A DNA stretch of 22,367 nt, from positions 1 through 22,367 of the IMG/VR virus record IMGVR_UViG_3300025137_000329. The stretch is one strand, 5' to 3'. This DNA comes from a virus. This document shows, piece by piece, positions 5,202 through 11,760 of this stretch (its first letter is position 1; every line of letters starts with the position of its first letter). The position numbers were made by a program, and so were the translations under genes. The notes under the pieces are model-generated. The model searched no databases. It saw nothing but the letters and a program-made list of their open reading frames with translations, and was not told where the DNA came from.

Positions 5202-5708
5202 TTAAGCTACGAAACTTTCACCTTCTGTCCACCCACAACCTGTGAGTCCACCAGCCTGAAGTGCTTTGAGTGTTCGTATTGTCTCATCTACATTTCTTCC
5301 TGTATCGAGAGCATTAACTGTGATGGATTGAATTGTATTTTCGGGATCAACAATATATGTTGCCCTGAGACACACTTGTTCATGTTGATCAACAACTCCT
5401 AACTCACCAGAAAGTTCTAAACCAGAATCAGCAGCTAAAGTATGACGAATATTTCTTATAAGATCGTTGTCTTTCTTCCAAGCAAGTTTACAGAACTCAT
5501 TGTCTCCACTAAATCCAATAACATTGACTCCTTCATCAACGAGTCTATCCATCTCTAATATTTCTGTTGGACATATAAAAGTGAAATCTTTTGGATAGAA
5601 GTAGTATATAGTCCATCCTTCATTGAGATCATTGACCTCAATCATTTCATTTTTATCATTCACACCATTACATTTAAACTCTGGAAAAAAGTCTCCAACA
5701 CCAATCAT
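5202..5708 (-). CDS. 2-Cys peroxiredoxin, AhpC/TSA type
   Basis: This 168-aa thioredoxin-fold peroxidase reduces H2O2, organic hydroperoxides or peroxynitrite. The active-site P(x3)T(x2)C motif is intact: P39, T43 and peroxidatic C46 in FTFICPTE, with the conserved arginine at R115 (CLRATYIVDPE). A C-terminal cysteine, C158 in GLTGCGW, is placed as the resolving cysteine of typical AhpC enzymes, so it should cycle through host thioredoxin or AhpD/AhpF-like reductants. The ATG at 5708 is chosen because GAGGAG lies eight bases upstream; the in-frame TTG at 5714 is too close to it. No reductase gene is nearby. It sits among virion genes, between an outer-membrane protein gene and gp13, which suggests acquisition from a bacterium as an auxiliary metabolic gene. 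Confidence 0.93.
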   Translation of the reverse strand: MIGVGDFFPEFKCNGVNDKNEMIEVNDLNEGWTIYYFYPKDFTFICPTEILEMDRLVDEGVNVIGFSGDNEFCKLAWKKDNDLIRNIRHTLAADSGLELSGELGVVDQHEQVCLRATYIVDPENTIQSITVNALDTGRNVDETIRTLKALQAGGLTGCGWTEGESFVA

Positions 5709-5716
5709 CTTCAAAT

Positions 5717-5724: not shown

Positions 5725-6369
5725 TTAAAATTCATATGTTATATTAATAGCCTGTGCCTTTGTTCCGATGTTACCACCGACTGTAAATTTACCTACTTGT
5801 TTCTCAAGAGTAACTGCTTGATACTCTGACAAATTCCAAGACTTTCCATATTCGATACCGACTACGATATGATCAAGTAGATCAACGATACCATTATGAA
5901 TATGTAACTTATATCCAAACTTATAGAAATCTTCTTCAGTATTATTTATGTTGACTGAATAAGTTCCAAAGAGTCCATATGCACTTACTGTGCCTTCAAC
6001 TTCATCAATGTCTGATAAAACTGTTCCATCATATCCAAAACGAGTAAAGATACCTTCTATAGATATATTGTCTGTGATGTCAATATTTCCACCAGCATAC
6101 AAATCATATTCATACGTTGTATCGTCATCATAGTCCACCTGAGAGGCCCAAATTCCCCCGAACACTTCTACCACTCCGACACGACCTGATGCTTCAGCCC
6201 CTCCATTTACTGCAAGGTGACCCCCATTCTGATTGTATCCACGAAAGATATAATCGGAAGAGACTCCAGCGGTAATATCTAAGTCAGCACCAAAAAAACT
6301 TTTCTTTTCTTCTTCTGCAAATGCAGAAAATGGTAATAAACATAGTAATAGTATAAGTATCTTTTTCAT
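5725..6369 (-). CDS. Secreted outer-membrane beta-barrel protein, TIGR02001/Gcw_chp-like
   Basis: The 214-aa product begins with a clear Sec signal peptide (MKKILILLLCLLPFSAFA, cleavage near residue 18). The mature protein alternates polar and hydrophobic residues like a small outer-membrane barrel, and it ends in aromatic phenylalanine (ITYEF-stop), the usual barrel-insertion signal. The sequence TAGVSSDYIFRGYNQNG followed by GGIWASQVDY and YEYDLYAG matches the bacterial Gcw_chp / TIGR02001 family, whose function is unknown. The ATG at 6369 has AGAGGA five bases upstream; the longer in-frame extension would spoil the signal peptide. A phage copy could remodel the host envelope, for example by masking receptors or altering permeability. 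That role is inference; the family placement is from recognisable motifs. Confidence 0.8.
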   Translation of the reverse strand: MKKILILLLCLLPFSAFAEEEKKSFFGADLDITAGVSSDYIFRGYNQNGGHLAVNGGAEASGRVGVVEVFGGIWASQVDYDDDTTYEYDLYAGGNIDITDNISIEGIFTRFGYDGTVLSDIDEVEGTVSAYGLFGTYSVNINNTEEDFYKFGYKLHIHNGIVDLLDHIVVGIEYGKSWNLSEYQAVTLEKQVGKFTVGGNIGTKAQAINITYEF

Positions 6370-6392
6370 TTTAATCCTCTTTAAATTTAATC

Positions 6393-6785
6393 TTAAGCAC
6401 CTGTCCATTGAGCTTTATCTTCATCCCAAACGTAACTATGCGTTGCATTTGCAGTTGGAGATGGAGTTGGTGCAGTCCATACTAAAGTGTTTGCATGAAG
6501 ATGCCAAGAACTGTGTGGTTTAGGCCAATGAATAAATCCATTAGCAGTATCTCCAGATTCTCCACCGAGATACACCATGCCCAAACCACTATATCTTACT
6601 CTAAAATTATTATTGTAAGAAGTTTGTACCCATGTACCTCCAAGAACCTTTTGACAATAAGCTTGACCTATAGATTCAACTTCATTTCCACCTTCATCCT
6701 CTGTATCACTGTCTTGAACAACCACAACTTGTGTAACTGTGTTTGCAACACCACTTACAGTTTCTAATTTCGCAAAATGTGCCAT
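6393..6785 (-). CDS. Conserved small phage protein, MAHF-type, function unknown
   Basis: This 130-aa protein belongs to a type I recognise from many marine T4-like phages: N-terminal MAHFAKL followed by a short beta region with VTQVVVV, an ESIGQAYCQKVLGGTWVQTS block, then NNNFRVRYSGLGMVYL, and a Trp/Pro-rich end (HWPKPHSSW, VWTAPTPSP, YVWDEDKAQW). No enzymatic motif is visible. The family usually sits near fibre and structural genes, so a virion or tail-associated role is possible but unproven. I set the start at the ATG at 6785, not at the upstream GTG codons that overlap the Shine-Dalgarno. It lies between the 2OG oxygenase and the outer-membrane protein genes. Confidence 0.75.
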   Translation of the reverse strand: MAHFAKLETVSGVANTVTQVVVVQDSDTEDEGGNEVESIGQAYCQKVLGGTWVQTSYNNNFRVRYSGLGMVYLGGESGDTANGFIHWPKPHSSWHLHANTLVWTAPTPSPTANATHSYVWDEDKAQWTGA

Positions 6786-6793
6786 TGGCACCA

Positions 6794-6799
6794 CTCCTT
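6794..6799 (-). promoter_or_regulatory. Ribosome binding site deciding the MAHF-protein start
   Basis: AAGGAG on the minus strand is eight bases before the ATG at 6785 and overlaps both the stop of the oxygenase gene and the first of the alternative in-frame GTG codons. That rules out the GTG starts and gives MAHFAKL as the N-terminus. Confidence 0.7.
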
Positions 6800-7493
6800 A
6801 TTTTACATTATGTATTTTTTCTTCAAGAATACATTCTGTTAACGACTCTCTCGTTCCCAAATTACCCCTTGGAAACGTATTAAATGAAAGACTAATTCTT
6901 TCGTGACCTTCTTTCTCTATCGTTGCAACTCTGTGTGTCAAAGAAGAAGGAAATAAAATAAGTTGTCCTTCCTGTACTTGATACCACCATGAGTCACTAT
7001 TATATACGTTAAACTCACTTACCTCTGGCTTTATTTGTCTATACTCATTTCTATCAAAATATATTTTATCTGTTTCTGCATCAGTTTTAACATAAAACAC
7101 ACCCGATACCATAGAATTAGGATGCTCATGTTTGTGATGATATTCACCTGTCTTTGTAAAATTTGCCCAAGATTGAGTGATATAAAGGTCTGTTCCACTA
7201 CTCATACTCATAATTCTACTTGCATACTCATTCACACATATAGAAAAAAACTCTTTTAACTTTTTTAATTTTTTATCGTTTAAAATATAACTGTATTTAG
7301 TTGAGTGATTTCCTTCATTTAATGATTTATCCAAATTCTCAATAAACTTAAATTCTGATTTTGTAAGCTTTCTTTTTAATCTAAAACTACCAATGGGAAT
7401 TGGAAATAAATTAAAAACCTCAAGAGTTTCTGAAACTTGTATTCCAGAAGATAAAGTACTTACAACATCAACTTTATTGTTTAAGCTTGTCAT
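6798..7493 (-). CDS. 2-oxoglutarate/Fe(II)-dependent oxygenase family protein
   Basis: The 231-aa product matches the putative 2OG-Fe(II) oxygenases frequent in marine T4-like phages (TIGR02466 / PF13759 type). The diagnostic stretch is SWANFTKTGEYHHKHEHPNS followed by MVSGVFYV, which supplies the proximal metal ligands around H120-H124. A second conserved block, LILFPSSLTHRV then ERISLSFN, gives the distal histidine H187 and R199, the likely 2OG carboxylate contact. Such enzymes hydroxylate proteins or small molecules; the substrate here is unknown. Its reading frame overlaps the end of the 93-aa gene by 20 bases, so the two are probably co-translated. Neighbours are fibre genes on one side and secreted or redox proteins on the other. 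Confidence 0.85.
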   Translation of the reverse strand: MTSLNNKVDVVSTLSSGIQVSETLEVFNLFPIPIGSFRLKRKLTKSEFKFIENLDKSLNEGNHSTKYSYILNDKKLKKLKEFFSICVNEYASRIMSMSSGTDLYITQSWANFTKTGEYHHKHEHPNSMVSGVFYVKTDAETDKIYFDRNEYRQIKPEVSEFNVYNSDSWWYQVQEGQLILFPSSLTHRVATIEKEGHERISLSFNTFPRGNLGTRESLTECILEEKIHNVK

Positions 7494-7776: not shown

Positions 7777-8643
7777 TTATGTTGCGGTTCTATATTTTAT
7801 AATTATAACTCCAGAACCACCACTATTTCCTAATGCACCTGATGATTGACCACCACCGCCACCGCCTCCACCGCCTAGGTTGGCTGTTCCTGCAACTGCT
7901 GTATCGTCATCTCCTGTTCCTGCTCCACCACCACCAGAACCTCCAGCAGAATCGGCAGAAGTGAAACCACCACCTCCTCCACCACCAGCGTATGTGACAG
8001 ATGAACCTGTGATTGTAGAGGCTGTTCCGTTACCACCAGCTCCGCCTACTCCATTATTTCCAGGCGAACCTGCTGCACCTCCGGCAGCTGCTCCACCGCC
8101 ACCACCTGCACCACCTATGTTTCCTCCATTTGTTCCACCTGGCCCACCATCACTTCCTTGTGATGGCGAAGTTGAAGGTGTGTTGCCACTTCCACCTGCT
8201 CCGCCTGAACTGGAACTGTGAGCTCCACCGCCACCAGAGCCACCATTTCCTCCTGCTCCAGCATTAGGCCCGCCTTTGCCAAGACCACCGCCAGCAGATG
8301 CAAGAGAAACAGGACTTCCTATGGAAGAATTATTCCCAGCTGCACCAGAAGCTCCACCACGTGGGCCGTTTGCAGCTCCTCCAGCACCAATTGTAAATGT
8401 GTAAGCATCACCGCCAGTTACAGCTTGTCCTGTACCAATTCGGAATCCTCCAGCACCTCCACCGCCTCCACGATTAGAACCGCCTCCTGCTCCGCCGGCA
8501 ACAATGAGATATTCTATCTCATCAACGTCAGCTGGAATAGTGAAGTCTGCTGTAGAATTAAAAGTTCGAATAGTAATAGTGCCGGCAGCTGCAGCTGATT
8601 GAGAGAGAATACCGAACTTTCCGAAACCTGTGACGAGAACCAT
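7777..8643 (-). CDS. Glycine-rich fibre-tip / adhesin-like protein (canonical order)
   Basis: The 288-aa product is dominated by polyglycine runs and is typical of the glycine-rich domains attached to phage tail fibres. Four blocks can be named: A, a beta-strand entry with IRTFNSTADFTIPADV and EYLIVAGGAGGG (22-55); B, YTFTIGAGG to NNSSIGS (80-110); C, TASTITGSSVTYAGGGGGG (208-226); D, the exit strand GSGVIIIKY (276-284). Polyglycine stretches can form polyglycine-II helix bundles, as in the gp38 adhesin of Salmonella phage S16; that fold is an inference here. AGGTGA precedes the ATG, and the gene follows the 401-aa fibre gene by ten bases. It is locally far more GC-rich than its surroundings because of Gly codons. 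It probably contacts the host receptor. Confidence 0.82.
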   Translation of the reverse strand: MVLVTGFGKFGILSQSAAAAGTITIRTFNSTADFTIPADVDEIEYLIVAGGAGGGSNRGGGGGAGGFRIGTGQAVTGGDAYTFTIGAGGAANGPRGGASGAAGNNSSIGSPVSLASAGGGLGKGGPNAGAGGNGGSGGGGAHSSSSGGAGGSGNTPSTSPSQGSDGGPGGTNGGNIGGAGGGGGAAAGGAAGSPGNNGVGGAGGNGTASTITGSSVTYAGGGGGGGFTSADSAGGSGGGGAGTGDDDTAVAGTANLGGGGGGGGGQSSGALGNSGGSGVIIIKYRTAT

Positions 8644-8653
8644 TTTATATCAC

Positions 8654-9859
8654 CTAAGCCAAGTTACCAATAAGAATCCAAGTATTTTCTTCAAGTTTTT
8701 TGAGGGTTGCAGAAGTAAATCTGTCTGCAACTGTATTTGCAAGTTCTTTTGAAAGCAGTGTAACACCAGCTGCATTGGAAAATCCAAGTGTATTTGCAGA
8801 TGCGTGAGTAAGTTCATTAACAAATGATATTTCAGAACCCAAAGGCATACCGACAGTATCGTATGCTGGTATGTGAATATTAACGGCACTTGCAGTATTG
8901 ATACACCGAATAAGTTTACCATTATCAGTCAATGCAAGTGTTATATTGTTTCCACCTGATTTACGAATCGGCATACCTTGAGCTGCAATAAATGTTCCTT
9001 GAACATGAAGATTTGCAGCTGGAGCTGAATTACCAATACCAACCGAACCTGTAAAGACAGGAGCAACTTTTGTAGCTGCATTTGCAACTTGCATACGATC
9101 ATTAACAAGAAGTGTTGTATTCGCAACTTGCATACGATCAGCAATAAGTAATCTTAATGCTGTGTTTGTACCTACGAGATTTGTATTGACAAGAGTTGTT
9201 CTTGCAACTTCTGTCGCAATACGTGCATTTGTATTTCCAAGTGCAGCTAAAGCTGCAACATTTGCAACCTGTGCCCTATCAGCAATAAGTAGTCTCAACG
9301 CAGTGTTAGACCCTACGAGATTTGTATTAACAAGTGTAACTCTTGCAGTCTCTACTGCGATACTAGAATTTGTGTTCGCAAGTGCAGCCAAAGCTGCAAC
9401 ATTTGCAACTTGAGCCCTATCGTTAATCAATAATCTCAATGCAGTATTTGTGCCTATAAGATTTGTATTAACAAGAGTTGTTCTTGCAACTTCTGTCGCA
9501 ATACGAGCATTGGTGTTACCAAGTGCAATCGTTGCTTGAAGGGTTGCACCTCCAATAGAAACTGTACCTCCTGAGAATTTAGTATTTGCTTCAACAAGAA
9601 GATTGTTACCAAGAAATCTGGTGTTTGCACTTGTGTGAGCAGAAACTGCACCACCATAAGTGTTCAATGCACCCGAAACTGTTGCGTTTGCAGTAACATT
9701 AGCTGTTTTCTTGATTGACAAAATACGACTCGTTACGTGATTTACGCCTGTAGTATTTGCAAGAAAACTTAATTCTTCTGCGAGTTCATTATGGTCTGTA
9801 CGAAACTGACCAAGTGTATTCGCAACCGCTAAACTGCCAAATTTTGTACCAACTGCCAT
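8654..9859 (-). CDS. Tail fibre protein with coiled-coil repeats (401 aa)
   Basis: The N-terminal 40 residues (FGSLAVANTLGQFRTDHNEL, ending in LANTTG) resemble those of the 339-aa fibre gene upstream and probably form the attachment end. Residues about 60-110 are short N-T-rich beta repeats. Residues 115-255 are three copies of a 47-aa unit rich in NT, ALRLLI and DRAQVAN, probably a trimeric coiled coil or triple beta-helix shaft. The C-terminal about 100 residues (ITLALTDNGKLIRC, GSEISFVNE, GVTLLSK, TLKKLEENTWILIGNLA) match a head domain widespread in phage tail fibres. AGGAAG five bases before the ATG and a consensus late promoter just upstream support the start. With the glycine-rich protein that follows, it forms the second fibre module. 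Confidence 0.87.
   Translation of the reverse strand: MAVGTKFGSLAVANTLGQFRTDHNELAEELSFLANTTGVNHVTSRILSIKKTANVTANATVSGALNTYGGAVSAHTSANTRFLGNNLLVEANTKFSGGTVSIGGATLQATIALGNTNARIATEVARTTLVNTNLIGTNTALRLLINDRAQVANVAALAALANTNSSIAVETARVTLVNTNLVGSNTALRLLIADRAQVANVAALAALGNTNARIATEVARTTLVNTNLVGTNTALRLLIADRMQVANTTLLVNDRMQVANAATKVAPVFTGSVGIGNSAPAANLHVQGTFIAAQGMPIRKSGGNNITLALTDNGKLIRCINTASAVNIHIPAYDTVGMPLGSEISFVNELTHASANTLGFSNAAGVTLLSKELANTVADRFTSATLKKLEENTWILIGNLA
9095..9517 (-). repeat. Three tandem 141-bp (47-aa) repeats in the 401-aa fibre gene
   Basis: The repeats start at protein residues 115, 162 and 209, exactly 47 residues apart (about 9377-9517, 9236-9376 and 9095-9235). Each reads NTN(A/S)(R/S)IA-x-E-x-AR, then TLVNTNL, (I/V)G(T/S)NTALRLLI and DR-x-QVAN. 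The third copy degenerates after DRMQVAN into a short extra DRMQVAN echo. DNA identity is high, notably between copies 1 and 3, which points to recent duplication or gene conversion. Confidence 0.9.
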
Positions 9860-9898: not shown

Positions 9899-10741
9899 TT
9901 ATATTGAGAGTGTACGAGTGGTTGAAGTTACTTGACCACCACCACCTCCACCGCCTCCGCCACCGCCTCCTGCTCCTACAGCAAGAATTGTGACAGCAAT
10001 TTCCGAACCTGTTGTTCCTTGTACATTTAATGCTCCAGAAGAAGTAAATGTATGTATAGTATTGTCACCCGAAGTAGCACTTGAACCACCTGATATAGTC
10101 AATTCAGCATCACTTGCGTCTGAAGTATCATAACTAATTACAATTACACCAGATGCACCATTAGATCGAATACTTGACTCACCTGTTCTTGAACCACTAC
10201 CTCCACCACCACGATTAGCTGTTGGAGCAGTTGGTAAATCTCCCTCATCTGGGCCACCACCACTACCACCATTACCTGTACCACCATTTCCAGCACTACC
10301 AATATTTGTACCACCGCCACCACCAGCACCATATGTAATAGAAGAACCTGTTATCGAAGATGCAGTTCCAGCACCACCAGCTCCAGCATTTGAATCTGTA
10401 CTAGATGCCCCACCAGCTGCTCCGTCACCTCCACCGCCACCACCGACTGAACCAGAACTTATTTTACCAAGACTACCATTCCATTCCGCAGATAGGTTGT
10501 TATTATTTCTACCACCTGATGCACCACCACGATAGACATTGCTTGCGTCATGGAAACCTCCACCACCTCCAATGCCAGTTACAATTGCTATTCCACTACC
10601 CGAAAAAGTTGAACTTCCGCCCGTATACGAATATCCTGTTTCAGCAAAAGGAACTCTAGGCCCTCCTGCTCCAACTTGCACAACCCAATCTGTGCCTGAA
10701 GTACCACCACCACTTGCCATAGTTCTACGAGTGATAAACAT
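9899..10741 (-). CDS. Glycine-rich fibre-tip / adhesin-like protein, circularly permuted block order
   Basis: This 280-aa glycine-rich protein is related to the 288-aa one downstream. It has the same blocks in rotated order: it opens with block B (DWVVQVGAGG to STFSGSG, 18-50), then C (ASSITGSSITYGAGG, 127-141), then D (GASGVIVISY, 195-204), and ends with block A (NTIHTFTSSG to VTILAVGAGG, then 12 consecutive glycines, 227-269). It stops at VTSTTRTLSI, which reads as if it should run on into block B. This suggests a circular permutation, or a unit cut from a tandem array. The start ATG shares a base with the stop of the 339-aa fibre gene (TAATG), so the pair is coupled. A host-binding adhesin role is inferred. 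Confidence 0.78.
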   Translation of the reverse strand: MFITRRTMASGGGTSGTDWVVQVGAGGPRVPFAETGYSYTGGSSTFSGSGIAIVTGIGGGGGFHDASNVYRGGASGGRNNNNLSAEWNGSLGKISSGSVGGGGGGDGAAGGASSTDSNAGAGGAGTASSITGSSITYGAGGGGGTNIGSAGNGGTGNGGSGGGPDEGDLPTAPTANRGGGGSGSRTGESSIRSNGASGVIVISYDTSDASDAELTISGGSSATSGDNTIHTFTSSGALNVQGTTGSEIAVTILAVGAGGGGGGGGGGGGQVTSTTRTLSI

Positions 10742-11760
10742 TAAAAGAAGTCCTGCCCCGCTGTAAATGCATAATAAGTTGTTCCAGCATCTTTAGTGAT
10801 AAAACTGAAAATATCTACTGAGTTATTTCTTGCAGTATGTGTTGGTTTTGAGTTACCAGCCCACTTAACTGCACTTGGCCAAGTAATCTGTCTCTGTGTT
10901 CCGTCATTGGTAAACAGTATGGTAAATCCAAACATATTTGCTCCAGGCGGAGGATTGTTAAGTGTAATACTTGTTACCGAACCAATTAAAGGAATACTGA
11001 AATTCTGTGCAGAACTTAAATCAATACTGATTGCATTACTTGAAATAGCTGATGTTGCATACTGTTCACGAAAGGTTTTGGATTTCATAAATCCTTCGTT
11101 AGTCGTGTTCCCTGCAAGAGTTGTTTTTGCATTGGGGCCATTGACAACCAATTTACTTTTGATGATTGTGTTTGCACCATTAAGTACAGTATTACTTTGG
11201 ATTATAAGTCTCTTTGAGAGTATGTCTGTGTTTGCACTGTTCTTGAGAACTTTGAATCTACCTTTGTTCACAAAGTTTCCTGTTGTATGAACAGAAGATG
11301 TGATGTTTACATTTGCACCCCTAAGAGAAACATTTGATGTATTGTAAAGAAGTCCACCACGAATACTTGTGTTACCACCTTGAAACTCTGCATTAGCTGT
11401 TGCGTAGATTTGTTTTCCTGTAAAGTCTGTGTTTGCACTTGTACTAATAAAACCACCACGAAAGTCATTACTTGCACCAAGGAATCTTGTATTTGATACA
11501 GACAATAAAGTTCCACCCAAGATACTTGTATTTGAACCATCAAGTACAATCGTATTTGAAACTCTTGTATGTATTGCTGTTATAAAGACATTTGCACCAC
11601 TAAGTCGAGTGTTTCCTTCTCCATGAAGATTTAAAGTTCGTAGAGCAGGAACACCTGTCGTATTTGCAGCCTTGTTAATATGGGCTCTTACATTATTGGT
11701 GTTTATCCTCCAAGTGTTAAAGGTATTCGCTAATGAGGTTTCGGTAAATAACTCTGGCAT
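10741..11760 (-). CDS. Tail fibre protein with N-T beta-repeats (339 aa)
   Basis: The N-terminus (SLANTFNTWRINTNNVRAHI, ending in AANTTG) parallels that of the 401-aa fibre. Residues about 48-215 are short imperfect repeats built on N-T with small hydrophobics (for example SNTRFLGAS, SANTDFTG, GGNTSIRGG, GANVNIT), with a period near 8-10 residues, suggesting a beta-helical shaft. The C-terminal 100 residues (ISIDLSSAQNFSI, FTILFTNDG, ITWPSAVKWAGNSKPTHTA, VDIFSFITKDAG, YYAFTAGQDF) match a very common phage tail-fibre C-terminal head domain. The ATG overlaps the stop of the 69-aa gene (TAATG), and its own stop overlaps the next start. It probably forms a fibre capped by the glycine-rich product encoded next. 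Confidence 0.87.
   Translation of the reverse strand: MPELFTETSLANTFNTWRINTNNVRAHINKAANTTGVPALRTLNLHGEGNTRLSGANVFITAIHTRVSNTIVLDGSNTSILGGTLLSVSNTRFLGASNDFRGGFISTSANTDFTGKQIYATANAEFQGGNTSIRGGLLYNTSNVSLRGANVNITSSVHTTGNFVNKGRFKVLKNSANTDILSKRLIIQSNTVLNGANTIIKSKLVVNGPNAKTTLAGNTTNEGFMKSKTFREQYATSAISSNAISIDLSSAQNFSIPLIGSVTSITLNNPPPGANMFGFTILFTNDGTQRQITWPSAVKWAGNSKPTHTARNNSVDIFSFITKDAGTTYYAFTAGQDFF

Follow-up and report, generated by a model that had tools for sequence, protein, structure and literature searches.

Closest described systems

The tail fibre gp24 of cyanophage Pam3 (7YPX, 7YFW) has a TNF-like sandwich with glycine-rich arms (PMC9608196). The T-even adhesin gp38 (S16, PP01) is a glycine-rich protein with arms and variable loops (PMC12892980). 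Natural circular permutants are known from other proteins, such as saposin/swaposin, and permutation by duplication is the standard model for them (PMC3320104). No description of permutation in a Gly_rich_2-type family (Pfam PF21722) was found in the open-licence literature.

The 280-amino acid (aa) protein described here has a probability of about 80% of being a stable natural circular permutant of the TNF-like/glycine-rich adhesin domain (Gly_rich_2), with a proposed role at the fibre tip and a proposed origin in a tandem array. It belongs to the same domain by profile (PF21722, 39.2 bits; cut-off 24.3) and has the same predicted strand set as a 288-aa protein encoded nearby, but the first 49 profile positions are found at its C-terminus rather than its N-terminus. 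Pam3 gp24 provides a solved fold of the ordinary chain order and has the domain fused to its own helical shaft, whereas the 280-aa domain is encoded by a separate gene that follows a fibre gene. The gp38 proteins of S16 and PP01 are also encoded by a separate glycine-rich gene beside a fibre gene. This likeness is a works-like analogy; the 280-aa protein has no Pfam gp38-family match (only Gly_rich_2) and its permuted model lacks a PDB match. The evolutionary change is of the same kind as that in saposin/swaposin and other natural circular permutants but affects a different protein, and within Gly_rich_2 a single viral family contains tandem arrays alongside at least two rotated forms.

Locus organization

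The window (the whole stretch of DNA analysed) is a linear virus record of 22,367 bases from a T4-like, probably marine, myovirus. Its terminase shows ~59% identity to cyanophage terminases. Both glycine-rich genes have the coordinates given in the initial annotation and lie on the minus strand (Table 1), where the gene order is 339-aa fibre, 280-aa protein, 401-aa fibre-like protein and 288-aa protein. The locus thus looks like two pairs, each made up of a fibre gene and a glycine-rich gene. Pfam and PHROG searches found no family match for the 401-aa protein.

Table 1. Features of the fibre locus and parts of the 280-aa protein
Feature	Position	Strand	Basis
280-aa glycine-rich protein, order B-C-D-A, whole gene	9899..10741	- (10741→9899)	ORF
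N-terminal leader, residues 1-13 (MFITRRTMASGGG)	10703..10741	-	clade-conserved in alignment; pLDDT below 50
Blocks B-C-D, residues 14-204	10130..10702	-	profile 57-257, 129.8 bits
Linker, residues 205-225, from former C-terminus (strand D) to former N-terminus (strand A1)	10067..10129	-	between profile matches
Block A (strands A1 and A2, first glycine arm, strand 4), residues 226-280, now C-terminal	9902..10066	-	profile 3-55
339-aa tail fibre, directly upstream of the 280-aa gene	10741..11760	- (11760→10741)	PHROG tail fibre matches at C-terminus
401-aa repetitive fibre-like protein, directly downstream of the 280-aa gene	8654..9859	- (9859→8654)	ORF and repeats
288-aa glycine-rich protein, ordinary order A-B-C-D, rotation reference	7777..8643	- (8643→7777)	Gly_rich_2 profile 3-226

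The ATG of the 280-aa gene overlaps the stop codon of the 339-aa fibre gene (taATG), and 39 bases separate its own stop codon from the start of the next fibre gene. Because of this overlap and short gap, no missing part of the 280-aa protein can be hidden next door, and a remainder in neighbouring genes was rejected as an explanation. An internal methionine in the window (residue 8) is replaced by isoleucine in two relatives (L004 and L005), indicating that the first ATG is the start of the gene.

Rotation of the 280-aa sequence

A tailored profile was built from 29 ordinary-order domains of the loci fetched in this analysis. It matches the 280-aa protein twice, with residues 14-204 aligned to profile positions 57-257 (129.8 bits) and residues 226-277 aligned to positions 3-55 (28.7 bits). 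As in natural circular permutants, the two matches are complementary and in swapped order, with a single break. When the C-terminal block is moved to the front, one continuous match is obtained (profile 3-257, 165.5 bits), while 300 versions with the moved block shuffled score a mean of 131.7 bits (sd 3.3, maximum 143.7). The result is unchanged with a profile made without the window's clade (rotated 164.4 bits, shuffle maximum 144.1). The complementary matches and this shuffle control bear out the order B-C-D-A first read from the sequence. When the 280-aa sequence is doubled, as the initial annotation had proposed, BLAST aligns it to the 288-aa protein continuously with 156 bits (127 bits unrotated).

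The Pfam model gives a similar picture. Gly_rich_2 matches the 288-aa protein over profile positions 3-226, in keeping with the order A-B-C-D assigned to it earlier. The 280-aa protein in its natural order covers only 50-225 of the 226 positions, beginning at residue 8, and the doubled sequence covers positions 15-225 across the joint. The Pfam gain by rotation is only about 3 bits (42.4 vs 39.2), which counts against a permutant, and the tailored profile is therefore the stronger evidence for rotation.

Predicted fold

AlphaFold2 predicts the 280-aa protein as one domain (pLDDT 80.6, pTM 0.83) and models the 288-aa protein with higher scores (pLDDT 90.0, pTM 0.87). The N-terminal leader is unmodelled in both. 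The two models have the same predicted strand set in a rotated order, with a single break that falls between strand 4 (67-74 in the 288-aa protein; 271-279 in the 280-aa protein) and strand 5 (80-84; 14-22). Block A is modelled as strands 227-232, 236-243, 247-255 and 271-279, and the linker as a helix (206-212) and a strand (220-224). The alignment behind the 280-aa model is thin over the A2 segment. As its input took in tandem-array and A1-tailed segments, the model and the sequence argument are not independent of each other.

The initial annotation had held that a C-terminal block predicted as an independent domain would speak against permutation; instead, the block is part of the single predicted domain. 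This bears on whether the gene is an ordinary tandem-array fragment, ending inside an incomplete second domain whose C-terminal stub folds separately or not at all. With the profile phrog_2295, the match (profile 635-936) follows the natural order of the 280-aa protein, as it would at an array domain boundary, and arrays with the same D-linker-A1-A2-B junction exist. Such a fragment is nevertheless unlikely: the first domain would be missing exactly what the stub has, confidence in the modelled stub is high (pLDDT 88-95 in the last three blocks; overall pTM 0.83), and a lineage about 50% diverged has kept it, L064 and L065 being identical in amino acid sequence over the final 82 codons.

S16-type gp38 caps are not known to be trimers, and the 280-aa protein is predicted to form one compact domain as a single chain. 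Both points count against a swap in which block A of one chain completes B-C-D of the next to give an interlocked trimer. This arrangement is quite improbable, even though fibres are trimeric, the distal part of Pam3 gp24 is described as intertwined (PMC9608196) and the linker would be long enough. Closure within one chain is favoured by the model.

In structure searches, the 288-aa model matches the Pam3 fibre (7ypx, E-value: 3.5e-7) and the Bxb1 tail tip (9d93, E-value: 2.8e-6); a weaker match is to the glycine-rich domain of ALK, an animal receptor (E-value: 0.05). Pam3 is also the one match in a PDB sequence search with the 288-aa protein, although weak (E-value: 0.005). The permuted 280-aa model has no PDB match, including 7YPX/7YFW, in a search that keeps chain order, a result expected of a permutant but also of a poor model. 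It does match viral glycine-rich models, the best being from Pelagibacter phage HTVC025P (E-value: 1.6e-9, TM 0.61).

Conservation in relatives

The same gene is found in L001 (100%) and L002 (99%) and in part in L004, L005, L064 and L065. The 280-aa-type start is common to L001, L002, L004/L290 and L005, and the 280-aa-type end to L001, L002, L064 and L065. In L004 and L005 the gene starts as it does in the window (MFIVRRTIAAGGG...; 47-58% protein identity), and in L064 and L065 it ends as it does in the window (...GGGGQVSADTSFTLST; 47-58% identity) and is followed by the next fibre gene. As in a natural permutant, the order is retained in these diverged relatives. A DNA pattern for the overlapping start was found in only four contigs in IMG/VR, all from the window's clade. 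The dN/dS values, rough estimates on short aligned pieces, range from about 0.35 to 0.7, suggesting that the gene is probably maintained.

Homologues with B-C-D-A as an ordinary tandem-domain boundary would also have spoken against the initial annotation, but the genes of this clade stop after block A. The relatives likewise bear on an assembly or sequencing artefact, in which a collapsed glycine-rich repeat mimics rotation. Glycine-rich repeats are hard to assemble, but identical limits occur in contigs of other samples, including lineages about 50% diverged, and neither the 39-base gap nor the upstream sequence contains a remnant of the missing parts. An artefact is extremely improbable, and assembly error was rejected because the relatives agree in order. 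The clean rotation of a glycine-rich adhesin-like domain that was first proposed is backed by sequence, relatives and predicted fold.

Chain orders across phages

Glycine-rich proteins were gathered by searching with a DNA pattern for block C and by other searches, and the sample is biased by the search pattern. Strand A1 is absent from the N-terminus in 77 of the 97 complete single-domain proteins surveyed, and in 75 of these 77 the chain runs on past strand D as a tail of 30-43 residues. Examples of the A1-like strand in these tails are GGYRIYVFNSSGSIAF and TSGSHTIHTFNSTGNLVIA. Placing the tail in front of the protein gives a mean profile gain of 7.0 bits, compared to 2.4 for shuffled tails. 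The real tail beat all 20 shuffles in 44 of 76 proteins, the remaining tails being too divergent in sequence to decide. N- and C-terminal strands were typed automatically and only approximately, and about five "ordinary-order" proteins with 35-39-aa tails are probably of the C-terminal-strand type.

As judged from sequence, A2-B-C-D-A1 is the commonest single-domain order in this biased sample, and A-B-C-D, the A-first order of Pfam, is in the minority. The 288-aa order, initially taken as the norm, does not hold as such, as most sampled single-domain relatives have the first strand at the C-terminus. The layout A2-B-C-D-A1 is present in a cultured phage (HTVC025P gp43) and in L152, L157 and L189, and the proteins of this type are among those with the tail sequences closest to the moved block outside the window's clade. 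They have the same domain with a C-terminal first strand, but strand A1 alone is moved, whereas in the 280-aa protein A1 and A2 are moved together with strand 4 and the first glycine arm. Among the sampled proteins, this deeper break is found in the window's own clade only. At least three chain orders are thus apparent in phages: A-B-C-D, A2-B-C-D-A1 and B-C-D-A. In L146 (4241-6751) and L147 (5245-7743), a protein of 833-837 aa has a first domain of the order A2-B-C-D-A1 followed by two ordinary-order domains, each with its own A1, so that both layouts occur in one chain.

When the 280-aa, 288-aa and L148 proteins were searched against the isolate phage collection, essentially nothing was found; the low-complexity filter probably masks the glycine runs. 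A scan of genome contigs found no relative, and DNA searches gave short glycine-block matches only. One DNA match, in Greip EXVC021P, coincides with a gene whose annotation is DNA stabilization protein, and it gave no further lead.

Origin of the permuted gene

The initial annotation suggested excision of one unit from a tandem array. The sequences outside the clade that the moved block matches best are junctions and C-terminal tails bearing the motif GGT.TTSG...IHTF.SSG (L209, L189, L157, L155, L152). The A blocks of the neighbouring 288/557/575-aa proteins, which have a short linker, are not among these best matches, and the A block of the 288-aa protein belongs to a different sequence class. 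Direct excision from the 288-aa gene was rejected on the basis of this difference, and on sequence grounds the neighbouring gene or array is an unlikely direct source. Permutation by duplication, with truncation of a tandem array, is the best-fitting origin: an array would become a permuted gene if two adjacent units acquired a start and a stop, respectively, at the same turn. Several unrelated arrays in other viruses, with D-linker-A1-A2-B in one stretch (L263, L283, L231, L245, L254), have what these two changes would leave. No tandem precursor was seen at the window's locus. The array part of the earlier suggestion stands as the best-fitting explanation, but the neighbouring array is unlikely as the direct source, since the moved block best matches other proteins.

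Proposed function

The proposed model for the 280-aa protein is as follows. The break is at the turn that separates strand 4 from strand 5; in a Pam3-type fold, this turn is part of the beta-sandwich where the glycine arms have their base. The former ends (strands D and A1) are joined by the linker of ~20 residues. In the virion, the protein would cap the 339-aa fibre encoded directly upstream, attached through its short leader (a candidate docking peptide), and the loops at the glycine-arm tips would be presented to the host receptor. Gene position and fold point by analogy to a fibre-tip adhesin of the Pam3 gp24/S16 gp38 type, and gene order makes the 339-aa fibre its likely partner.

A more tentative idea is that phages may use the base of the domain as a permutable socket, the three orders attaching the same receptor-binding head via different ends. 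If so, head orientation or assembly partner would change while the arms are kept. This widespread phage host-recognition domain does not have fixed boundaries, and part of each permuted member is missed by family models and by structure searches that depend on chain order. Together, the arrays, the single units and the natural rotated forms, at least two in number, make up a series for testing how circular permutants arise.

Neighbouring genes

The 401-aa protein is made of repeats (NTNLVGTNTALRLLIADRxQVAN). A gene of this type comes after the 280-aa gene in L001, L002, L064 and L065, and its product is 401, about 388, 350 or 330 aa long among relatives. From this variation, repeat number seems to set the shaft length of the fibre. 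The second glycine-rich protein (7777-8643) has one domain in the window and L001 and two tandem domains (557-575 aa) in L002 (2949-4619), L064 (1611-3335) and L065 (1540-3264); unit number thus varies among close relatives.

A 2OG-Fe(II) oxygenase gene (Pfam) is present at 6798-7493, and a different version is found in L002 (4891-5610). L002 has this different oxygenase gene and a different glycine-rich gene, yet its 280-aa gene is 99% the same, which suggests mosaic exchange of the oxygenase/glycine-rich segment. A peroxiredoxin (AhpC-like) gene lies amid structural genes (5202-5714), and its matches in isolate phages are distant (31-36% identity among the matches listed). The adjacent 227-aa protein (5725-6408) has a signal-peptide-like start and the look of an outer membrane protein; it has no match in the isolate phage collection. 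Adjoining the terminase gene, positions 1763-2266 encode a nuclease-like protein with a possible signal sequence and staphylococcal-nuclease-type motifs (VIDGDTV and RIRGIDTPE, read by eye).
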